From positions 1 through 64,000 of the forward strand of contig JAGWHF010000005.1 of NCBI GenBank assembly GCA_028866895.1: a stretch of DNA of 64,000 nucleotides, written 5' to 3'. Shown piece by piece: positions 4,721-14,412 of the stretch. The notes beneath the pieces are model-generated. The model was not told the DNA's origin and ran no database searches. It was given only the letters and a program-made list of their open reading frames with translations. The translations under genes and the position numbers were made by a program. Every line of letters starts with the position of its first letter. Position 1 is the first letter of the stretch. This DNA comes from Nitrososphaerota archaeon. GTDB taxonomy: Archaea; Thermoproteota; Nitrososphaeria; Nitrososphaerales; Nitrosopumilaceae.

Positions 4721-5806
4721 ATGTTTGGACACAAAAAAGACCCTAATTTTGGAGGGGGTAGTGCCATAGGGTCCACCACCATAGAGTGGGATTCACAATA
4801 CAAAGAAGGTAACATAATGTGGAAGGTCCCACGCCTCATCAGATTAAATGACAACATAGTCGTCAGGGAAGATGAGATCGCGGTATTTTTCAGGGATGGA
4901 AAGGTGCTAACATATTTTGACAAACCGAACAGATATGCCCTTACAGATTTTAACGCGCCCATAGTTGGCGGACTCTTAAAATTCTTCACCGGAGTCCAGC
5001 AGGCGGCTGAGGTCTATTACTTACAGAACAGATACATCGATGGAAAATTCGGTTCAACCGAGCCCTACCAGTTTGTGGATCCAGTATTTGGGATAGTCAA
5101 CCTCAGAATCTTTGGAGAATACAGGTGGAAAATCTCCCAACCAGAAAACTTTGTCAACCAATTTGTCGGGACCTTCGCAGTACAAACCTCAGACGAGATA
5201 GAATCTAGGTTAAAGGAACAGATGGTGCTACTAGTCTTCAACGCATTAGGCAAGATGAAAGAAAACGGGCTCAAAGTGACCGATTTGGCAGCAAATCTTC
5301 AAAACATAGAGCAGATGGTCCTTGCCAATTCCACCTCTAACTTTGGTCAATATGGGATTGAAATTAACAAGGTTTCAGGCATTACCATCAGTTTACCTGA
5401 GGAGGTACAGAAGGCAATAGACACTAGATCACAAATGTCGGTCCTCGGAGTCAACTATCTGCAATACCAGGCCGGCCAAGCCATGACAGATGCCGCCAAG
5501 AACCCCGGTGGAGTAGCAGGCCTTGGAGCAGGACTAGGAGTAGGACTTGGAGCCGGCACCGGCATAGGGTACGTGATGGCCGGACAGATGGCCCAAGGCA
5601 TGTATCAGCCCCCGATGAAGCAATGCACCAAGTGCGGCATGATGATGCCAGTTTCCAATAACTTTTGTCCGAACTGCGGTTCAGGCCAGCAGCAGATCCA
5701 ACAACCAAAACCGCAGGAGGGTATTTTATGCCCGCAATGCGGAGCTCACATTACAAGCGATTCAAAATTCTGCTCAAACTGTGGCAGGCAGATAAAGACA
5801 GCATAG
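4721..5806 (+). CDS. SPFH-domain protein with C-terminal zinc ribbons
   Basis: A 361-residue protein resembling the SPFH-type family often annotated as virion core protein-like (YdjI-like). Residues 20-250 contain the SPFH-like part, including FRDGKVLTYFDKPNRY and a long helical segment (SRLKEQMVLLVFNAL). A Gly-rich stretch near residues 264-285 follows, then two zinc ribbons at about 302-325 and 334-357. The ribbons have CTKCG...CPNCG and CPQCG...CSNCG. No transmembrane segment is obvious. SPFH proteins typically form large membrane-associated oligomers; the role here is inferred. It lies between the helical protein and a second zinc-ribbon protein, spaced 9 bp from the latter. Confidence 0.75.
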   Translation: MFGHKKDPNFGGGSAIGSTTIEWDSQYKEGNIMWKVPRLIRLNDNIVVREDEIAVFFRDGKVLTYFDKPNRYALTDFNAPIVGGLLKFFTGVQQAAEVYYLQNRYIDGKFGSTEPYQFVDPVFGIVNLRIFGEYRWKISQPENFVNQFVGTFAVQTSDEIESRLKEQMVLLVFNALGKMKENGLKVTDLAANLQNIEQMVLANSTSNFGQYGIEINKVSGITISLPEEVQKAIDTRSQMSVLGVNYLQYQAGQAMTDAAKNPGGVAGLGAGLGVGLGAGTGIGYVMAGQMAQGMYQPPMKQCTKCGMMMPVSNNFCPNCGSGQQQIQQPKPQEGILCPQCGAHITSDSKFCSNCGRQIKTA

Positions 5807-5815
5807 GAGATTGGA

Positions 5816-6823
5816 ATGTTTTGTGTTAAATGCGGCTCTCAAATTCCAGACGATGCAGCTTATTGCTTCAAATGCGGAACCAAGCAGACGTTGCAACCTG
5901 CCAAACAAACCCAAGATACAAAGCAGGTGATCGAACAATCTACTGACGTCAAGGAGATAAAATGTCCCAGTTGTGGTGCCCCGATATCTCCAAAATTTGG
6001 CGAGATGGTAATTACCTGCGAATATTGTGGTAGCAGTGTTACCCTTGAAAACACAGGCTGGAAGAACATCGAGAAGCACACTATGCTTCCAATTGTCATA
6101 GCTGACAAGGATGACATAGTAGCAAGGCTACGAAAAATGATGGACAGGGGCCTCCTCCACAGACACCTCCAAGAAAAATCAACACTTGAGGAGATTACCC
6201 TAAGCATGATCCCATATTGGATAATTCCAGTCACAGCTAGGACCAATATTGTTGCAACAGACATAGGAGCCGAGGTAGGCAGCATCGCCACGACTGCCGC
6301 CTTGTTTGGAGTGATGGGAGGAGCAATGGGAGGTTTTGATTCAAGAGATAGTGGATTTGGAGGTGGTATGATGGACGGAGTGCTCATGGGTAGCGTGCTA
6401 GGCGGTGGGATGATGGGACCTGCAAATACCAAAAAGGCATACACCATAGATTCCAACTACAATTGCCCAGTCATTGCCCTAAAGGCACTCACGTTATACC
6501 AGCCGCGTGACTATGAGTTTGCATTGGATGGCAGGATTGATTTTGATCCCAAAAAGATTCCAAAATCAATCAAGATTCTCAATGGAGACATTAATGAAGA
6601 TGCGGCCAAGAACCAAGCCAAGGGAATAGCAGATACGTTGCAGACACAAAAAGCACATTCGCAATATCACATGATACAACAGATACAGACTGAGGAAGAT
6701 GTTTCAGGTGGCGAATTGCTACACGCCCCCATTTGGTTTGCAAAATACGATCACAAAGGAAAGAAGATCATCCTAGTAGTAGATGCCAATTCAGGTGCTG
6801 CAATCAACAGTATCGGACTATAA
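5816..6823 (+). CDS. Double zinc-ribbon protein with Gly/Met-rich core
   Basis: A 335-residue protein of unknown function. An N-terminal zinc ribbon (CVKCGS...CFKCG, residues 3-22) and a second one (CPSCG...CEYCG, about 49-72) precede a domain with several hydrophobic strands. Residues 155-205 are Gly/Ala/Met-rich (GVMGGAMGG, GGGMMDG) and could insert in a membrane or form a flexible linker. The C-terminal third is a globular domain ending with IILVVDANSGAAI. It follows the SPFH gene by 9 bp, so the two are very likely translated from one mRNA and may form a zinc-ribbon scaffold together. Its stop abuts the convergent gene without a gap. Confidence 0.65.
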   Translation: MFCVKCGSQIPDDAAYCFKCGTKQTLQPAKQTQDTKQVIEQSTDVKEIKCPSCGAPISPKFGEMVITCEYCGSSVTLENTGWKNIEKHTMLPIVIADKDDIVARLRKMMDRGLLHRHLQEKSTLEEITLSMIPYWIIPVTARTNIVATDIGAEVGSIATTAALFGVMGGAMGGFDSRDSGFGGGMMDGVLMGSVLGGGMMGPANTKKAYTIDSNYNCPVIALKALTLYQPRDYEFALDGRIDFDPKKIPKSIKILNGDINEDAAKNQAKGIADTLQTQKAHSQYHMIQQIQTEEDVSGGELLHAPIWFAKYDHKGKKIILVVDANSGAAINSIGL

Positions 6824-7129
6824 CTAATTTTTGAGGAAATATGTTTTGACAGATTCTAGTGCGTCACGTACTGGATCAACATGGCCAAACTCATCCATGG
6901 TAAGGTCATGGGCTTCCAATATCTTTCTCTTGTTATCCGGCTCATCCTTGAGAAATACTATCATATCTTCCAGCCTGGCAGCCAGTTTTAGCTGGTCCTC
7001 AGAATCCACGTTTTTTAGAGCGTCAACATCTTCTGGAGTAAGCACATCACCATGAGGTTGGGCTTTTGAAAGGACTCGTATCATCGAATCGATTTTAGAG
7101 ATTGTGTCGTCGGCGCTCTTGGCCTTCAT
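6824..7129 (-). CDS. Small helical hypothetical protein
   Basis: A 101-residue protein, acidic and almost certainly all helical (KSADDTISKIDSMIRVLSK, LKLAARLEDMIVFLKD). No catalytic or metal motif is visible. It starts with ATG on the minus strand and ends exactly where the convergent zinc-ribbon gene ends. I do not recognise the family. Length, clean start and lack of stops over 300 nt support a real gene. Confidence 0.5.
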   Translation of the reverse strand: MKAKSADDTISKIDSMIRVLSKAQPHGDVLTPEDVDALKNVDSEDQLKLAARLEDMIVFLKDEPDNKRKILEAHDLTMDEFGHVDPVRDALESVKTYFLKN

Positions 7130-7275
7130 TTTCTCATTATCCTGTAGTTTTTAGCTATAAAAATCCATTCTTTCCTTTCATGACCTTCAAATCAGATTAA
7201 AAAAATCCTGCCTTGCCTCAGACCTACAAAATACGGAGCAAATAGTATAATAATAATTAGAAATCTTATGGTTTT

Positions 7276-8220
7276 ATGAACACAGTAAGAATCCCGAAAA
7301 CAATCAACTTTGGCAAAGATGCGCTATCCGAAACACAATATCCAAAAAATGCACTGGTTGTAACCACTGCCCCTCCCGAGGTCTCAAAGAAATGGCTTAC
7401 AAGGATGAAGATTACAGATTATATGCTTTATGATAAGGTTGAACCAGAGCCCTCTATTGAAACAGTCAACAAGGTAATTGGAGAGTTCAAACCAAAAAAT
7501 CCATCCGCCATAATCGGTCTTGGCGGAGGCAGTTCCCTAGATGTTGCAAAATATGCAAGCGCGGAAATGAAAATACCAAAGATTCTGATCCCTACCACCT
7601 TTGGCACGGGAGCAGAGATGACCACCTATTGTGTCCTAAAGTTTGATGGTAAGAAGAAGCTTTTGCAGGACGAGCGTTTTCTTGCCGACGTAGCAGTAAT
7701 CGATTCTTACTTTATGGAGGGCACGCCTGAGGCAATTGTTAAGAACTCAGTCTGCGATGCCTGCGCCCAAGCAACCGAGGGCTATGACAGTAAAAGAGGA
7801 AATGAATTTACAAAAATGCTATGCAAATCTGCCTTTGACGTACTCTATGACGCCATAATGAACAACAAGCCTGAAAACTACCCCTTTGGTTCTATGCTCT
7901 CCGGGATAGGTTTCGGCAATGCGTCCACCACCCTGGGACATGCGCTCTCATACGTTTTCTCCAACGAAGGAGTCCCCCACGGGTACTCTCTCTCGTCATG
8001 CACCACCGTAGCACACAGGTTTAACAAATCGGTCTTTTACGACAAGTTCAAAGAGGTGATAGAGAAGCTGAAATTCGACAAACTTAGCCTCAAGGCTCCA
8101 ATTGACCAAGCTGCAGAAGTAGTCATGACGGATAGAGGTCACTTAGATCCAAACCCCATACCTGTGACAAAAGAGGATGTCATGGGCCTACTAAAAGACA
8201 TAGTTGACGGCAGGCTGTAA
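7276..8220 (+). CDS. Iron-type alcohol dehydrogenase family protein
   Basis: An NAD(P)-dependent alcohol/semialdehyde dehydrogenase of the iron-containing ADH family. The 314 residues are shorter than the usual 380 or so. The GGGSSLD nucleotide-binding motif is near residue 82, followed by PTTFGTGAEMT. The metal-site segments are VCDACAQATEGY, TTLGHALSY and VPHGYS. They retain one Asp and two His, but the His normally four residues after the Asp is Gln. In autotrophic thaumarchaea I recall a member of this family acting as malonic semialdehyde reductase in the 3-hydroxypropionate/4-hydroxybutyrate cycle. That role fits the mutase genes in this window but is an inference. Confidence 0.75.
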   Translation: MNTVRIPKTINFGKDALSETQYPKNALVVTTAPPEVSKKWLTRMKITDYMLYDKVEPEPSIETVNKVIGEFKPKNPSAIIGLGGGSSLDVAKYASAEMKIPKILIPTTFGTGAEMTTYCVLKFDGKKKLLQDERFLADVAVIDSYFMEGTPEAIVKNSVCDACAQATEGYDSKRGNEFTKMLCKSAFDVLYDAIMNNKPENYPFGSMLSGIGFGNASTTLGHALSYVFSNEGVPHGYSLSSCTTVAHRFNKSVFYDKFKEVIEKLKFDKLSLKAPIDQAAEVVMTDRGHLDPNPIPVTKEDVMGLLKDIVDGRL

Positions 8221-8321
8221 TAACAAAGTAACATCCATACTGACTGGTAGCCCGAAATGCGGTTGCCTTACCTTGTTGATCAACCTTTTATGTAAGAAGG
8301 GACAAAATACTCAAAGTTCCA

Positions 8322-9647
8322 ATGCAACAATTAGACAACATAAAAGACCTAAGAGGGAAAATACTGAGCATACTTGATGAATCTGGCTTTCAATCCGTAT
8401 GTTTTTCAAGAATTCTCGATTATACAATAGACCTGTTTCATCAAAAGGGGCTTGGGACAGACTACTATGGATACCACAACATAATCCATGAACTGGAGGT
8501 AACTTACATCACCCTTGTGGCTGCACAATGGCAGTCCAAAAACAACACGATACCAAAAGATGACATGAAATACCTTTTTGTTTCTGCTCTATTTCATGAC
8601 TATGACCCACAGAAGAGGATCGACAAACCCCATGAGCCGGACGCAGTAAATTTTGTGATGACTGACAAAATTCTGGGCGAGTTGTTAAAGGAATCAGGGA
8701 TGGATTCAAACATAATAGCAGCACTAATCTTGAGGACTACATATCCCTGGAATGGGGAAAAAAAAGAGAAGGCTGAACTTCTAATCGATAATTTCTACTC
8801 CATGTCAGACATCACAAGAGACAGTCCTTCGAGTACGGAATATTATAAAAAACTTGGATGGTTCCTATCCGTAGCAGACAGGATTGGCGGATATGCCTTG
8901 GGAAATTTCCCCTACGCGCTGGAGATGGCAAAAAAGAACGCACATTCACTTGCATGGCACCCGAACCTGATTTCAAATAGAGCTGTGGCATACTTTGAGG
9001 ATCTCCTGAACAACGAATCAGAGATGTGCAATCAGATTCTAGGATCTCTGCCGCGGGAAATGCGAAGGTCGTTCATGGATAACGTATTAGGCTTCATGAA
9101 ACTGAGAGAGACAGAAATTCAGAATCAGGCATCCGTCATTTATGACAAGGTTCAACTCGTACCCACAATTGATCCTATGAAAACAAGGGAGACTGAAGAG
9201 TTTGTAAACACCCTGTTTGAGATCTATCAGGAGCTTCCCTCTCCGCTTCAATTCATGAATTCAAATTTTGCCGATTCAATACGCGATCCAAACGTGCTCT
9301 TAAACACCCTAAGATACGGAGGGGAAAATGGCCCAATCATCGGCTTTGTAAAAGGAAGATCGCTTGAAAGTTACAAATTGCGGCCAGGTATAAATGACCC
9401 CCATTTTGGAAATAGTGACACGGTTTTCTTAGAACCCATAGCACTAAAGATGGGCTACTGGGGATTGGGAGGTGGAAGGGAAATGCGCCTCATGTTTTTA
9501 CTACAGGCCCAATCAAAAGGATTCGACTATCTCTCAAGTTTTGCCCTGCGTGACGTCATTAAGGAAAGAATGAGAAGAAATGAGAAGGTAGAGTTTGTCA
9601 AGCAGTTCGATCCTGAAAGATGGGATTATTACAGGGTAAAGTTATAG
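8322..9647 (+). CDS. HD-domain phosphohydrolase fused to a GNAT-like domain
   Basis: A 441-residue two-domain protein. Residues 25-250 form a helical HD-superfamily domain with YHNIIHELEV at 51-60 and ALFHDYDP at 89-96, followed by HEPDAVN. The YHN-xx-H and HDxD spacing recalls class I cyclic-nucleotide phosphodiesterases more than bacterial HD proteins. Residues 285-441 resemble a GNAT acetyltransferase: a beta strand (GPIIGFVKGR), then VFLEPIALKMGYWGLGGGREMRL, which fits the acyl-CoA-binding turn, and a terminal helix-strand. Predicted roles are phosphate-ester hydrolysis and acyl transfer; substrates are unknown. TTTTATG near 8286 is a TATA candidate. Confidence 0.6.
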   Translation: MQQLDNIKDLRGKILSILDESGFQSVCFSRILDYTIDLFHQKGLGTDYYGYHNIIHELEVTYITLVAAQWQSKNNTIPKDDMKYLFVSALFHDYDPQKRIDKPHEPDAVNFVMTDKILGELLKESGMDSNIIAALILRTTYPWNGEKKEKAELLIDNFYSMSDITRDSPSSTEYYKKLGWFLSVADRIGGYALGNFPYALEMAKKNAHSLAWHPNLISNRAVAYFEDLLNNESEMCNQILGSLPREMRRSFMDNVLGFMKLRETEIQNQASVIYDKVQLVPTIDPMKTRETEEFVNTLFEIYQELPSPLQFMNSNFADSIRDPNVLLNTLRYGGENGPIIGFVKGRSLESYKLRPGINDPHFGNSDTVFLEPIALKMGYWGLGGGREMRLMFLLQAQSKGFDYLSSFALRDVIKERMRRNEKVEFVKQFDPERWDYYRVKL

Positions 9648-9766
9648 AAAATTTCGATCCCTCAAACCAAATTTAGATGATCTCCCTGTTTTGCAGTCAG
9701 TGGCGTGAATTTTACTAGACTTAAATAGTGCTTCCGAATGACCCAATTGCAACAGGTTTCAGAAAA

Positions 9767-10852
9767 TTGATAAAATTCGGAATACAGCAAGGATTGAACG
9801 TTGCAAGACTCGGACTGACGGAGGATCAAATCCTTACAGCGTGTGTTCTTGCAGACAAGGTTGGATATGACTCTATATGGTATATGGACCACAGTAACGT
9901 GCCACAATGGAATCATGCAATCGTCAATGATCCTTGGGTAATGCTTTCAGCCATAGCCGCCATAACAAACAAGGTTGAACTGGGTACCTGCGTAACTGAT
10001 GCCGTTAGAAGACACCCGTCCAACATAGCTCTGGCCACCATCACTCTGGATAGAGTATCACATGGAAGAGGAACATTAGGCATCGGAGCAGGCGAGGCTC
10101 AGAACATCAAAGAATTCAAGATTCAATGGGATAAACCCGTAGGAAGGTTTGAGGAACAGCTACAGGTCATAAAGCTGCTTTTTGGGTCGTCACCTGAACA
10201 TAGGGTCAGCTTCAAGGGTGAATACTATCAACTTGAAGAGGCATGTCTTCAGGCAAAGCCAATCCGTGATCCACATCCACCCATTTACATGGCAGCAGGC
10301 GCACCCAGAACCCTCGCACTTTGCGGCAAATACGGGGATGGCTGGATTCCCATAGGATACACGCCAGAACTTTATGAAGAACATGCAAAGGCAATCAAGC
10401 AATCTATGAAAGAGAATGGGAGAGATGCATCAAAATTCCAGTTCGGGGTTGATATTGACGTATACTTTGCAGACGATTCCGAGGTTGCATGGGCGAAGAT
10501 GAAGAATGCAGTCAAGGTAAGCTTGTTCAAGCCAGAGGTACTCAAAGTTCACGAAATCAAAGACATTGCAGGGTTTGACTTCAAAAAATACTTTACCGAA
10601 TATTCAATGTCCAACCAAGAATGGATAGTGAAGATGAGGGAGGCCGCACAGACAATACCCGACAAGGTGGCACGATCATCCATCGGAATAGGAACGCCAG
10701 ACGATATAATCCCGGTCTTTGAAAGGTTCATCAAGGCAGGTGTAAACCATTTCATAGTTAGATTCTGGGGTTCGGGTTACTTTGGGTCAATCGACAAGTT
10801 TGCGTCCACTGTATTGCCCTACTTTAAAGATCAGAACAATCCAAGAAAATAG
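9767..10852 (+). CDS. F420-dependent LLM-class oxidoreductase
   Basis: A luciferase-like TIM-barrel flavin/F420 oxidoreductase, close in type to methylenetetrahydromethanopterin reductase and glucose-6-phosphate dehydrogenase (F420). It carries SIWYMDHSN, ELGTCVTD, RHPSNIALATITLD and GRGTLGIGAGEAQNI in the first third, and PPIYMAAGAPRTLALCGKYGDGW in the middle. I place the start at TTG 9767, giving IKFGIQQGLNVA right after the first residue, which is the usual family N-terminus. A GTG at 9728 would overlap the TATA-like TTAAATAG at 9721-9728. The hydride acceptor is unknown. The gene is transcribed alone. Confidence 0.8.
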   Translation: MIKFGIQQGLNVARLGLTEDQILTACVLADKVGYDSIWYMDHSNVPQWNHAIVNDPWVMLSAIAAITNKVELGTCVTDAVRRHPSNIALATITLDRVSHGRGTLGIGAGEAQNIKEFKIQWDKPVGRFEEQLQVIKLLFGSSPEHRVSFKGEYYQLEEACLQAKPIRDPHPPIYMAAGAPRTLALCGKYGDGWIPIGYTPELYEEHAKAIKQSMKENGRDASKFQFGVDIDVYFADDSEVAWAKMKNAVKVSLFKPEVLKVHEIKDIAGFDFKKYFTEYSMSNQEWIVKMREAAQTIPDKVARSSIGIGTPDDIIPVFERFIKAGVNHFIVRFWGSGYFGSIDKFASTVLPYFKDQNNPRK

Positions 10853-10865
10853 TGCAGAAAGCACA

Positions 10866-11300
10866 TTACAAATATCTGAAAATAGTCATTTTTTCAGAGT
10901 TCGGAAGGTCCGAGACCAACGCAAAGTTGTACAGCGGATATGATATTTTGTAGTTCTTCATAAAACTCCATGCCACATCATGAGTTTTAAATTCTGTCCT
11001 GATTCCCTCGATTCTAAATTCCTCGCCGAACACATCAAACACTTTGATGAGATACCTTTTTGGTTTCTTGTGGGGTTTTGCCTTGAGCAACCAAGCAATT
11101 GCAAACACAAAGACCGCGATCATGATAAGAGCAGCCCCAATCTCCTTCATGTGAACCCAAAAGGCGGCAGGTATCGTATATCCAAACAAATTGTAAACAA
11201 AGCTCGAAAAACCTGCCACTGACGAACCGATCATCAAAAACGTCCTATAACTTGGTTGCGCCAGATCTGATTTCATGCCAGTTGATAGAACCAACCCCAA
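10866..11300 (-). CDS. Two-helix membrane protein
   Basis: A 144-residue protein with two transmembrane segments, roughly residues 20-42 (FLMIGSSVAGFSSFVYNLF) and 55-72 (AALIMIAVFVFAIAWLL). A basic stretch (KPHKKPKRY) follows, and then a soluble C-terminal domain of about 65 residues. The positive loop suggests that the C-terminal domain is cytoplasmic. I do not recognise the family and see no catalytic motif. Position 11300 is the outer ATG/GTG-type start; a later Met (residue 9) is also possible. Confidence 0.55.
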   Translation of the reverse strand: MGLVLSTGMKSDLAQPSYRTFLMIGSSVAGFSSFVYNLFGYTIPAAFWVHMKEIGAALIMIAVFVFAIAWLLKAKPHKKPKRYLIKVFDVFGEEFRIEGIRTEFKTHDVAWSFMKNYKISYPLYNFALVSDLPNSEKMTIFRYL

Positions 11301-11749
11301 TTTAACTATTAAATTATAGGGGCCTTCAAACCATCAAATTATCATACAGGGCTTCTTCACATCGCCAAGTCTGTCCCTCAAGGTCAAGCCCAGATCATTG
11401 CTTTCCACTAGTCTCCTTTCGCTTAGGCGATCACCCATGGAAACTTCAAAATTCGTGACAAGAAATGACTTCTGCCTAGAACGGGCTGGAATTGTATAAT
11501 GAGAAGGATTGTTCCGATATGAGACTCTGATCTATGTTTTGTATCTAATCCCTTGTAAGAAGCGAGTTTTAAAGGGTGTTGTGCAGAAGGTTTTGAAATA
11601 TCACAGGAATCCAAAGCAAGGGGGTGGCGGAACGAGAACCTCAAGACCATCAATCTAGAGAGTGGCGATGCTAGGATCCTCGGTATCATTATTTGACAAC
11701 CGAAAAGTTAACAGAACCCGCATCACTACCAAGAATGAGAACCTAAAAG
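11301..11749. other. 450-bp stretch without a confident gene; two protein-like short frames
   Basis: On the minus strand a frame open from about 11531 down to a TGA at 11334-11336 reads like real protein (it includes SFLVTNFEVS then MGDRLSERRLVES and TLRDRLGDVKKPC). Its only ATG, at 11438, would give just 34 residues, and the frame is closed by TAG upstream. On the plus strand a basic 39-residue frame (TTG 11539 to TAG 11658; KKRVLKGVVQKVLKYHRN then Gly/Arg-rich) is open. A TATA-like TGTATAATG lies at 11493-11501. This could be a small-gene region or gene remnants; I cannot decide. Confidence 0.3.
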
Positions 11750-12382
11750 ATGCAATTACTAGGAAGATTGGAGATAAAGTCAAAAGAGAGAATAATCAAG
11801 TTCTTAAACACCCAGGATACTGGACGTATTTGTAGCATAGACAGGGACGGTTTTCCCCAGATAATACCGATGAATTTTGTTTATGCAGGTGGTGCAATCT
11901 ATATGCATTCCCACATCAAGGGAGAGAAACTCCAAAATATCTCAAGGAATCCGAAGGTAGGTTTTGAGGTAGACAAGAGCCTAGAATTCCTGCCGTCGTA
12001 CTTTGGCCATCCCACTGACGCCTCTCAGGCAGACACGCTTTACATAAGCGTGGTCATAAAAGGACTGGGTGAAATCATAACGGACAAGGTTGAAAAAGCT
12101 TTTGCCCTCAACTCCTTGATGGAAAAGTACCAACCTGAGGGTCGATATGAGAAGATAAGGGATGACATGCATGTGCTTGACGAGGTTGCAATCATAAAGA
12201 TAATACCAGAATCAATGCGTGGCAAGTACAAGGTAGGGCAGCACATGGATAGGAGTACCAGGCTCAAGATTGCAAAACTCATTACGGAAAGAAACTCCCC
12301 TTCTTCCAAGGAAACCCTGAGGTTTATGGGGGTTGGGTTGAAAAAAGGCACCCTCGAGATAGTTGAAGAACCCGACTGGTAA
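11750..12382 (+). CDS. Pyridoxamine 5'-phosphate oxidase-like flavin-binding protein
   Basis: A 210-residue protein with the split-barrel fold of the PNPOx-like family, which binds FMN or F420. Typical segments are TGRICSIDRDGFPQIIPMNFVYAGGAIYMHS near residues 24-54, then ISRNPKVGFEVD and a C-terminal VAIIKIIPESMRGKYKV. No heme-utilisation or regulatory domain is attached. The substrate is unknown; related archaeal proteins reduce or bind F420 or flavins. It starts with an ATG and is followed by a short gap before uvrB. Confidence 0.7.
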   Translation: MQLLGRLEIKSKERIIKFLNTQDTGRICSIDRDGFPQIIPMNFVYAGGAIYMHSHIKGEKLQNISRNPKVGFEVDKSLEFLPSYFGHPTDASQADTLYISVVIKGLGEIITDKVEKAFALNSLMEKYQPEGRYEKIRDDMHVLDEVAIIKIIPESMRGKYKVGQHMDRSTRLKIAKLITERNSPSSKETLRFMGVGLKKGTLEIVEEPDW

Positions 12383-12474
12383 AAATTCAGGAAAGGGGCA
12401 TGTGCAAGTAATGATGCCTTTTTAATCCAAGATCTTAAAGTTTTAGTTAGGGAAACTCCCGATATCGAGGCGTC

Positions 12475-14412
12475 TTGCTTGAGAATCTCGAATTTCAGAT
12501 AGTATCAGATTTTGAACCCACAGGCGATCAGCCACAGGCCATACAAAGCCTCGTAGGTGGAATAAAGAAAAAGAAAGTCCAGACACTGCTAGGCGTAACA
12601 GGATCTGGTAAGACATTTACTATCGCAAACGCGATTCAAAGAACTGGCAAGAATACGCTGGTCATATCGCATAACAAGACACTTGCGGCACAGCTTTATT
12701 CCGAACTCAAACAATTCTTTCCAAAAAACAACGTTGGTTATTTTGTGAGCTATTATGACTATTACCAGCCGGAAAGCTACATCCCCCAGACTGACACATA
12801 TATAGAAAAAGATACCCAAATTAATGAGAAAATCGAGAAGATGCGGCTTGAAGCTACCGCGATGCTGCTTTCCGGCGAGCCGACAATAATAATTTCCACC
12901 GTTTCCTGCATATACTCGCTTGGATCTCCTCGGGATTGGGAGGTCATGTCAATCACTGTAGAGCGCGGGGCAGAGATAGGGCGTACGTCCCTTGTAAAGC
13001 AGTTAATCAATGCAAGGTATGAAAGAAACGACATCGAACTCACCCCCGGGCGTTTCAGGATTAAAGGCGACACCGTTGACATCATCCCTGCTTATTCGGA
13101 CTCGATTGTCAGGATCTCTATGTTTGGAGACGAGGTTGAAAAAATTTCCATATGCGATGAGGTTTCTCTCAAGGAGAAAAAGGAAGTATCCAAAATCAAG
13201 ATTTATCCCGCAAAGCATTACCTCGTGGCTGCAGATGTCAGGAAAAAGGCAACGCAGTCAATACGGGATGAATTGAAAAAAAGGCTAAAGGAACTGCCGG
13301 AGCTTGAAAAACAGAGACTCGAGATGAGAACAAAATATGACCTGGAAATGATAGAGGAACTCGGATATTGTTCAGGGATAGAAAACTACTCAAGGCATTT
13401 CGATGGACGGATGCCGGGAGAGCCTCCATTTTGTCTCCTCGATTTTTTTGGTGATGATTTCCTGCTCGTAGTAGACGAATCCCATGTGACTTTGCCGCAA
13501 CTACACGGAATGTTTAACGGCGATCATACAAGGAAAAAATCACTTATCGATTACGGATTCAGACTCCCCAGTGCATTTGACAACAGGCCTCTCAGATTTG
13601 AGGAGTTTGAAAAGTATGTCAAAAACGCCATTTTTGTTTCGGCCACGCCGGGGGAATATGAACGTAGGAAGAGTTTCCAGATAGTGGAGCAGCTAATCAG
13701 GCCTACAGGACTGGTAGATCCACAGGTAGAGGTCAGAAGGACGGAGAATCAGATGGAGGATCTGATATCAGAGATAATAAAGAGGGTTGAACAAAACCAG
13801 AGGATTCTTGTAACAACACTGACGAAGCGCATGGCAGAAGACCTTGCTGAATTTCTCTCAAAGCACAAAGTGAAGGTCAGATATCTCCATTCCGAGATAG
13901 AAAACCTTCAACGGACGGAGCTTATTCGGCTGCTAAGACTTGGGGAGTTTGACGTGATGGTGGGAATAAACTTGTTAAGGGAAGGGCTGGACATCCCCGA
14001 GGTGTCACTTGTCGCCATACTTGACGCAGATAAGGAAGGATTTCTAAGAAATGTTACCAGTTTGATTCAAACCTTTGGAAGAGCAGCGAGGAATGTCGAT
14101 GGATCCGTAATAATGTATGCAGATACAATGACCCAGTCCATGAGATTGGCAATCCTCGAAACGGAACGAAGGCGTAAAAAGCAAATAGAGTACAACAAGA
14201 GAATGGGAATCACACCTACGACCATTATCAAGGCAATACCCAAACAGACAGTTCAGCTAGATGAGACAAAGCACATGTCACGTCACGACCTAGAAATTTA
14301 TGCCATAGAACTTGAATCCGCCATGAAACGCTTTGCGGAGGAGCTTGACTTTGAGAGGGCAATAGAATATAGAGACAAACTCTCAAGAATACAGAAAGAA
14401 CTGGCAAAATGA
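12475..14412 (+). CDS. uvrB: Excinuclease ABC subunit B
   Basis: The damage-verifying helicase of nucleotide excision repair. It receives damaged DNA from UvrA and recruits UvrC. The 645 residues contain the Walker A GVTGSGKT at 40-47, the beta-hairpin region [18 protein letters not shown] near residue 93, DESH near 340, and helicase motifs including [12 protein letters not shown] and [11 protein letters not shown]-terminal UVR motif ([17 protein letters not shown]) contacts UvrC. The start is TTG at 12475, giving [19 protein letters not shown]. The 3' end overlaps the uvrA start in an ATGA arrangement, so the two are translationally coupled. Confidence 0.97.

Follow-up and report, generated by a model that had tools for sequence, protein, structure and literature searches.

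The window analysed here is a stretch of 64,000 nucleotides from the genome of a Nitrososphaerota archaeon of the family Nitrosopumilaceae. One open reading frame on its + strand occupies exactly positions 8322-9647, begins with an ATG start codon and encodes a product of 441 aa, hereafter HD-GNAT. Three motifs had been picked out in it by an earlier note, and all of them proved to be present in a real gene with genus-wide homologues, namely the YHN-xx-H motif (YHNIIH, residues 51-56), FHDYD (residues 91-95) and GYWGLGGGREM (residues 378-388). A chance match of these motifs was ruled out by the homologues found throughout the genus and by the two domain folds described below. The features of the gene, all on the + strand, are as follows:

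8322..9647, +, HD(PDE-fold)-GNAT fusion gene (open reading frame with ATG start, 441 aa; homologues; AlphaFold2 model)
8325..9128, +, N-terminal HD domain with predicted class I phosphodiesterase (PDE) fold, residues 2-269 (VIA-align)
8472..8489, +, YHNxxH motif, residues 51-56, with H52 as predicted general acid and H56 as predicted metal ligand (invariant in 51/51 homologues)
8595..8600, +, HD dyad (H92 D93), predicted metal ligands (invariant in 51/51)
8877..8879, +, D186, the last of the predicted metal ligands at the HD site (D in 34/51, E in 17/51)
9147..9644, +, predicted C-terminal GNAT domain, residues 276-441, in the order b1-a1-a2-b2-b3-b4-a3-b5-a4-b6-b7 (AlphaFold2, VIA-align, Foldseek)
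9432..9434, +, E371 on strand b4, candidate general base (invariant in 51/51; role taken from GNAT precedent)
9453..9485, +, GYWGLGGGREM, residues 378-388, at an atypical acyl-CoA P-loop position before helix a3 (position from the AlphaFold2 model)
9624..9635, +, C-terminal DYYR motif, residues 435-438 (invariant in 51/51)

The gene stands in a run of nine genes (4721-14412) in the order Band 7/zinc ribbon, zinc ribbon, small ORF, iron-containing alcohol dehydrogenase (Fe-ADH), HD-GNAT, luciferase-like, small ORF, PNPOx and UvrB. The Fe-ADH family gene just upstream (7276-8220, +) is short, with 314 aa; the characterised malonic semialdehyde reductase Nmar_1110 of ammonia-oxidising archaea (AOA) belongs to the same broad family (PMC5797428). 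The same Fe-ADH gene before HD-GNAT and the same luciferase-like gene after it were found in 12/12 of the closest loci (L031-L042), and the nine-gene order was maintained in these loci as far as they extend. At the 22 loci L043-L064, with flanks of varying length, a test for eight other genes of the window detected none of them, and ten loci read gene by gene revealed no common neighbourhood beyond close relatives. A common neighbour gene on the opposite strand was seen at the loci of families f2 and f3 (L074, L075, L077 and L078). A function tied to the adjoining Fe-ADH was dropped, since this neighbourhood was seen only in the clade of the window.

Homologues were aligned in two sets. Alignment A1 holds the window protein and 27 of the 34 loci from a pattern-based genome-wide scan, the patterns of which reach close relatives only; L035, L039, L046 and L054 were omitted as near-duplicates or by choice, and L061, L062 and L063 as partial or broken. 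The 28 rows of A1 were combined with 23 divergent rows, from which partial copies (e.g., L100, L101 and L105) and HD-methyltransferase proteins were excluded, to give an alignment of 51 homologues. The residues H52, H56, H92, D93, P96, E105, R138, T139, R187, N206, W212 and H213 of the N-terminal half were invariant in 51/51 homologues, as were E349, E371, G385, R389, R410, R416 and D435-Y436-Y437-R438 of the C-terminal half.

HD-GNAT reached the cut-off of no named family in the libraries searched. With Pfam, the window protein scored 14.9 bits against PDEase_I (PF00233; cut-off 24.8), covering only 45 of the 238 profile positions, 13.2 bits against HD (cut-off 22) and 12.3 bits against Acetyltransf_1 (PF00583; gathering score 20.7), all below threshold. 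Across the 28 sequences of A1, matches at E <= 1 were obtained with PDEase_I in 25, with HD in 17 and with Acetyltransf_1 in nine, the best E values being 1.6e-4 for PF00233 and 1.8e-4 for PF00583. The NCBIfam search gave no useful match (best E 0.065), nor did PADLOC, and searches of the PDB by sequence returned nothing useful, one finding no chain and another three, all of them unrelated and with E values no better than 0.09.

To assess the two halves at the level of structure, the whole protein was modelled with AlphaFold2 from alignment A1, giving a mean pLDDT of 83.3 and a pTM of 0.81, with pLDDT below 50 at residues 422-441 and a few others. The whole model was then compared by VIA-align with the top PDB chains of Foldseek, a comparison in which unrelated helical bundles can reach Z scores of about 13 to 14. 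All 50 entries listed (VIA-align 2) were class I PDE catalytic domains, PDE10A, PDE5A, PDE9A and RhoPDE among them, with Z scores of 17.1-18.0, rmsd values of 3.2-4.0 and 218-242 residues aligned at 12-15% identity over model residues about 2-269; consisting of PDE rows only, the list is silent for or against other HD families. In Foldseek, the only match of the whole model at E <= 0.001 was a GNAT (3fb3), and the PDE rows (PDE5/9/8/2) started at E 4.3e-3. The predicted fold thus agrees with the class I PDE resemblance claimed by the earlier note for this half, with a best Z score of 18.0.

The motifs on which that claim was built fit in part. The order HNxxH...HD and its conservation are common to HD-GNAT and class I PDEs, and in the related HD domain of L079 the motifs YHNxxH (YHNSTH in PDE8A) and HD aligned in register with PDE8A, in a weak match (E 0.17). 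By analogy with PDEs, we take H52 to be the general acid and H56 to be a metal ligand. The column of D186 held D in 34 and E in 17 of the 51 homologues, all 17 Glu falling within the 23 divergent rows. That the metal residues H56, H92, D93 and D186 cluster is predicted from the match in fold and from motif order, and on this footing the HD half carries a conserved predicted metal and general-acid site. On the other side, the class I PDE signature (the PROSITE pattern HDxxHx[AG]xx[NQ]) occurred in none of the 51 homologues, the position of the third His of PDEs being occupied by the invariant P96, and the Pfam cut-off was missed. As two of the membership features tested, the signature and the Pfam score, failed, membership in class I PDEs was rejected and HD-GNAT is not filed as a PDE. 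The PDEase_I profile was further run against 200 genomes of the phylum, where it matched in 15, in three of them above the cut-off, with 0/14 in the controls. The sequences of the six best matches were read and turned out to be HD proteins of a type other than HD-GNAT, which presumably are dGTPase/SAMHD-like. The PDEase_I score alone is therefore not diagnostic, and the weak sequence score was dropped as evidence in itself.

The C-terminus had been read by the earlier note as a GNAT-like domain with an acyl-CoA loop. AlphaFold2 modelling of residues 270-441 alone (alignment A2) yielded a pLDDT of 84.9, a pTM of 0.80 and the strand and helix order of GNATs. In VIA-align, all 50 entries listed for this segment were GNAT-type acyltransferases (Z 12.6-14.2), the best being chain 6yga_A of the NatC complex (Z 14.2, rmsd 2.9, 143 residues aligned), and Foldseek gave 639 matches at E <= 0.001 with a best E of 2.7e-7. 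Structure prediction and structural search thus found the GNAT fold, and, by the AlphaFold2 models and the two kinds of structural comparison, both structural guesses of the note hold at the level of the predicted fold. Malonyl-CoA decarboxylase, which appeared among the Foldseek rows of the whole model, was dropped as anything beyond a shared GNAT-type fold.

The proposed acyl-CoA loop, GYWGLGGGREM, lies at the right position of the model but does not match the P-loop consensus Q/R-x-x-G-x-G/A, which was found in 0/51 homologues; the region mostly reads (Y/F)WGxxGG. Active GNATs with atypical P-loops exist, as described in the part of PMC4964394 available to us, so the consensus is typical of GNATs and not strictly defining. 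HD-GNAT resembles GNATs such as the NatC catalytic subunit, Ard1, RimI and PH1933 in its predicted topology and in the glutamate on b4, whereas it differs from them in its P-loop, in its low identity (6-15%) and in scoring below the Pfam cut-off. By its predicted fold only, it is placed in the GNAT superfamily with an atypical P-loop.

The distribution of the fusion was examined at several taxonomic depths. A homologue was present in 37/37 genomes of the genus of the window, its own genome counted, and was in pieces in two of them. Among 61 relatives, 43 were matched, one of them (G057) through a different HD protein only. In the class, 206/300 genomes were matched; counted by hand, 192 of these reached E <= 1e-16, and the other 14 gave no better than 1.3e-8 to 8.0e-6. 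These 14 all belong to family f8, which we take to be Nitrososphaeraceae, and the matches, where located, fall in another HD protein of ~800 aa. Archaeal AmoA was detected in 201 of the same 300 genomes and in 0/14 controls. By hand tally, 174 genomes held both HD-GNAT and AmoA, 18 HD-GNAT only, 27 AmoA only and 81 neither; all carriers of either fell within families f1, f2, f3 and f8, and since the association, though strong, is one of a few related families, it gives no proof of a role in ammonia oxidation. Genus g25 contributes all three of its listed genomes to the 27 AmoA carriers without HD-GNAT, and incomplete assembly may account for part of both discordant groups. HD-GNAT occurs in most of the AOA examined.

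In the phylum, the full-length profile matched 72/398 genomes, two of which (G057 and G156) matched weakly through another HD protein, and a profile of the GNAT half alone matched 70/398. The listed matches of the GNAT half all fell in open frames of more than 430 aa, save a single 193-aa frame located on a contig fragment; with that one excepted, they fall in full-length frames, which indicates that the two halves travel together. Neither the plasmid collection nor the viral contigs that were searched contained a match to HD-GNAT. Prediction and comparison together show an HD domain of class I PDE fold joined to a predicted GNAT fold with an invariant glutamate on b4, the halves travelling together.

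Precedents for such an arrangement were sought among known systems. From class I PDEs (PDE10A, PDE5A, PDE9A and PDE8A), to which its HD half is alike in predicted fold (Z up to 18.0), HD-GNAT differs by its 12-15% identity, by the lack of the signature in 51/51 homologues, by its score below the Pfam cut-off, by the fusion to a GNAT and by being archaeal. In type III bacterial GNATs, according to the available portion of PMC8556138, an N-terminal ligand domain of the cAMP-binding, ACT or NADP-Rossmann kind precedes and controls the GNAT, and mycobacterial GNATs, e.g., MSMEG_5458 / Rv0998, are gated by a fused cAMP-binding domain. HD-GNAT has the same order of domains, an N-terminal domain followed by a C-terminal GNAT, whereas its N-terminal domain is none of the kinds listed there: the sensor is CRP-type cAMP-binding, ACT or NADP-Rossmann in the proteins that this portion covers, and in HD-GNAT the corresponding position is occupied by an HD domain of predicted PDE fold and with a predicted metal centre. 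The suggestion that the architecture is new therefore needs narrowing, because a ligand domain joined to a GNAT has the mycobacterial precedent just cited, while no PDE-fold HD domain ahead of a GNAT was found in the literature searched, in the case of PMC8556138 in its available portion. As modelled, HD-GNAT extends the known kind of ligand domain plus GNAT with an unrelated putative sensor.

A related HD domain also occurs in a different company. The f8 proteins L079 (1113-3485, -, 790 aa) and L080 (1053-3623, -, 856 aa) consist of hydrophobic N-terminal segments, an HD domain and a TrmB-like Methyltransf_4 domain (E 5.8e-7 and 3.3e-7). Their HD domain is related to that of HD-GNAT (hhalign probability 96.6) and carries YHNxxH/YHSxxH and HDYDP, whereas they differ from HD-GNAT in their hydrophobic N-terminal segments and in ending with a Methyltransf_4-like domain where HD-GNAT has its GNAT. 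The joining of a related HD domain to a methyltransferase-like domain suggests that this HD type is a module used with different transferases.

The genes that could make or read a cyclic nucleotide in AOA were surveyed in turn. Genes of the Guanylate_cyc family were found in 7/7 AOA genomes (controls 5/14), CYTH-type cyclases in 0/7 (controls 11/14) and the cNMP_binding domain in 2/7 (controls 10/14). The cNMP_binding domain was absent from the five genomes tested of f1, the family of the window, which leaves room for another receptor. Among the 61 relatives, a cyclase-like match (E <= 0.001) was obtained by hand tally in 41/42 genomes with HD-GNAT and in 5/19 others, a difference confounded by kinship; in families f9 and f10, cyclase-like genes are present and HD-GNAT is absent. 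The genome of the window holds two class III cyclase-like genes (L112 2681-3481 and L113 2223-3521), in which the metal-Asp motifs are kept and Lys replaces the canonical Arg (SIAAKI and TIVSKI).

In 32 cyclase frames, some of them repeats, both metal-Asp motifs were kept in 27 by a loose pattern. The canonical Arg position was captured by the pattern in 22 frames, with Lys in 20 and Arg in two, and left uncaptured in ten; the Arg-bearing cyclases are L131 (G054, with HD-GNAT) and L130 (G045, without HD-GNAT). With Lys at this position in most copies read, the activity of the cyclase-like proteins of AOA is doubtful, and these proteins may not synthesise cyclic nucleotides. In the available part of the genome paper of Nitrosotalea devanaterra (PMC4836417), a figure legend lists two such genes, one for a putative adenylate cyclase and the other for an adenylate/guanylate cyclase sensor. 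The literature searched contained no report in which cAMP had been measured in AOA.

A class III nucleotide-cyclase-like gene was found within 1.5 kb of HD-GNAT in 6/103 distinct loci, on the 5′ side in 6/6. The 103 loci are 115 distinct loci minus 12 with less than 1.4 kb on one side, after matches shorter than 300 aa and gene repeats were dropped; other ways of counting gave 6/123 locus entries, repeats included, and 6/74. In three of the six the cyclase-like gene is co-directional and operon-like, the matched stretches lying 32-44 bp apart. These operon-like cyclase -> HD-GNAT pairs, from three genomes of genus g27, are the following:

L138 4227-6363
L140 4281-6477
L147 3406-5578

The cyclase-like gene of L146 is co-directional at a distance of 938 bp with another frame between, and those of L158 and L159 are divergent from HD-GNAT. 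No cyclase lay within 1.5 kb at the other 97 of the 103 loci, that of the window included. All three close pairs come from a single subfamily (the six best matches), the copies of which in G117, G121 and G639 have no adjoining cyclase, and the genes flanking the three pairs differ. By rough estimate, at about 5 cyclases per 1.6 Mb, chance would place a cyclase within 1.5 kb at ~1-2 of 103 loci; the sample is not random, since more copies of the same subfamily were fetched after the first cyclase-adjacent case. The cyclase was the sole neighbour sought across loci and met repeatedly, the search having been made for that gene alone.

We propose that HD-GNAT is a nucleotide-gated acyltransferase that would operate in the manner of the cAMP-gated mycobacterial GNATs, with an HD domain serving as the binding site, and probably also as the hydrolase, of a cyclic nucleotide or a related phosphoester; this reading is tentative, and we judge its probability to fall a little short of an even balance. 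Under this proposal, the class III cyclase-like proteins of AOA would make a cyclic mononucleotide or related phosphoester, which the HD domain would bind and probably hydrolyse with two metal ions. Occupancy or hydrolysis of the ligand would alter the conformation of the GNAT domain, which in turn would transfer the acyl group of acetyl-CoA or another acyl-CoA to an amine of a protein or to a small molecule. The HD domain would then be both the receptor and the off-switch of the acyltransferase, as an HD domain of PDE fold that stands in the position of a sensor and keeps its predicted metal site could erase a signal as well as read it. Here we infer metal binding, the identity of the ligand, hydrolysis, acyl transfer and the coupling of the halves. 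A bolder version, which we consider rather unlikely, is that AOA possess a private second-messenger pathway, in which non-canonical class III cyclases would supply the cyclic nucleotide and HD-GNAT would be its main receptor, a protein acylator and signal eraser in one chain; the targets acylated would perhaps be enzymes of ammonia oxidation or carbon fixation.

The logic could also run in reverse, with the HD domain as the enzyme, acting on a nucleotide or on another phosphoester (ppGpp, a dNTP or a nucleoside monophosphate, for example). The GNAT fold would then be a degenerate sensor of acyl-CoA through which hydrolysis is adjusted to carbon or energy status. HD superfamily members hydrolyse many phosphoesters, the HD residues are invariant while the P-loop of the GNAT half is off consensus in 51/51 homologues, and in the two f8 proteins the C-terminal partner of the related HD domain is Methyltransf_4-like and not a GNAT. 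However, the invariant E371, R389, R410, R416 and D435-Y-Y-R438 of the GNAT half look catalytic or strongly substrate-binding, and atypical P-loops are compatible with activity in the GNATs covered by the available part of PMC4964394, so that we regard this reading as unlikely, though deserving weight. The HD half could also be a pseudoenzyme or a pure ligand-binding module, which would sense a nucleotide without hydrolysing it. The invariant P96 at the position of the third His of PDEs and the replacement of D186 by E in 17/51 homologues would suit such a module, but H52, H56, H92 and D93 are invariant in 51/51, a pattern in keeping with selection on a metal site, and we hold the pseudoenzyme to be very improbable.

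Without any signalling, HD-GNAT might be a bifunctional enzyme of, e.g., nucleotide, cofactor or lipid metabolism, in which the HD domain would break down the product or the precursor of the acyltransferase by hydrolysis. That most AOA genomes retain it while its neighbours vary is consistent with this, as is its place between the Fe-ADH and the luciferase-like oxidoreductase in 12/12 close-clade loci. Outside the clade, however, that neighbourhood does not persist, and the neighbour met repeatedly is the class III cyclase-like gene, in a search for that gene alone; we consider a purely metabolic role to have a fairly low probability.

HD-GNAT is widely conserved in ecologically dominant and globally important nitrifiers, and its architecture predicts a nucleotide-controlled acyltransferase. 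Should the proposal of a nucleotide-gated acyltransferase be true, AOA would gain a signalling system, the ligand-gated GNATs would extend to a sensor able to destroy its own signal, and a PDE-like enzyme would be placed in archaea. The presence of a cyclase beside HD-GNAT in a few genomes offers a handle on whether the class III cyclase-like proteins of AOA do anything. As a separate observation, several g27 genomes hold two to four copies of HD-GNAT; G164 has four of them on contigs C1, C3 and C14, one of which adjoins a cyclase-like gene and one of which lies 0.9 kb from another.
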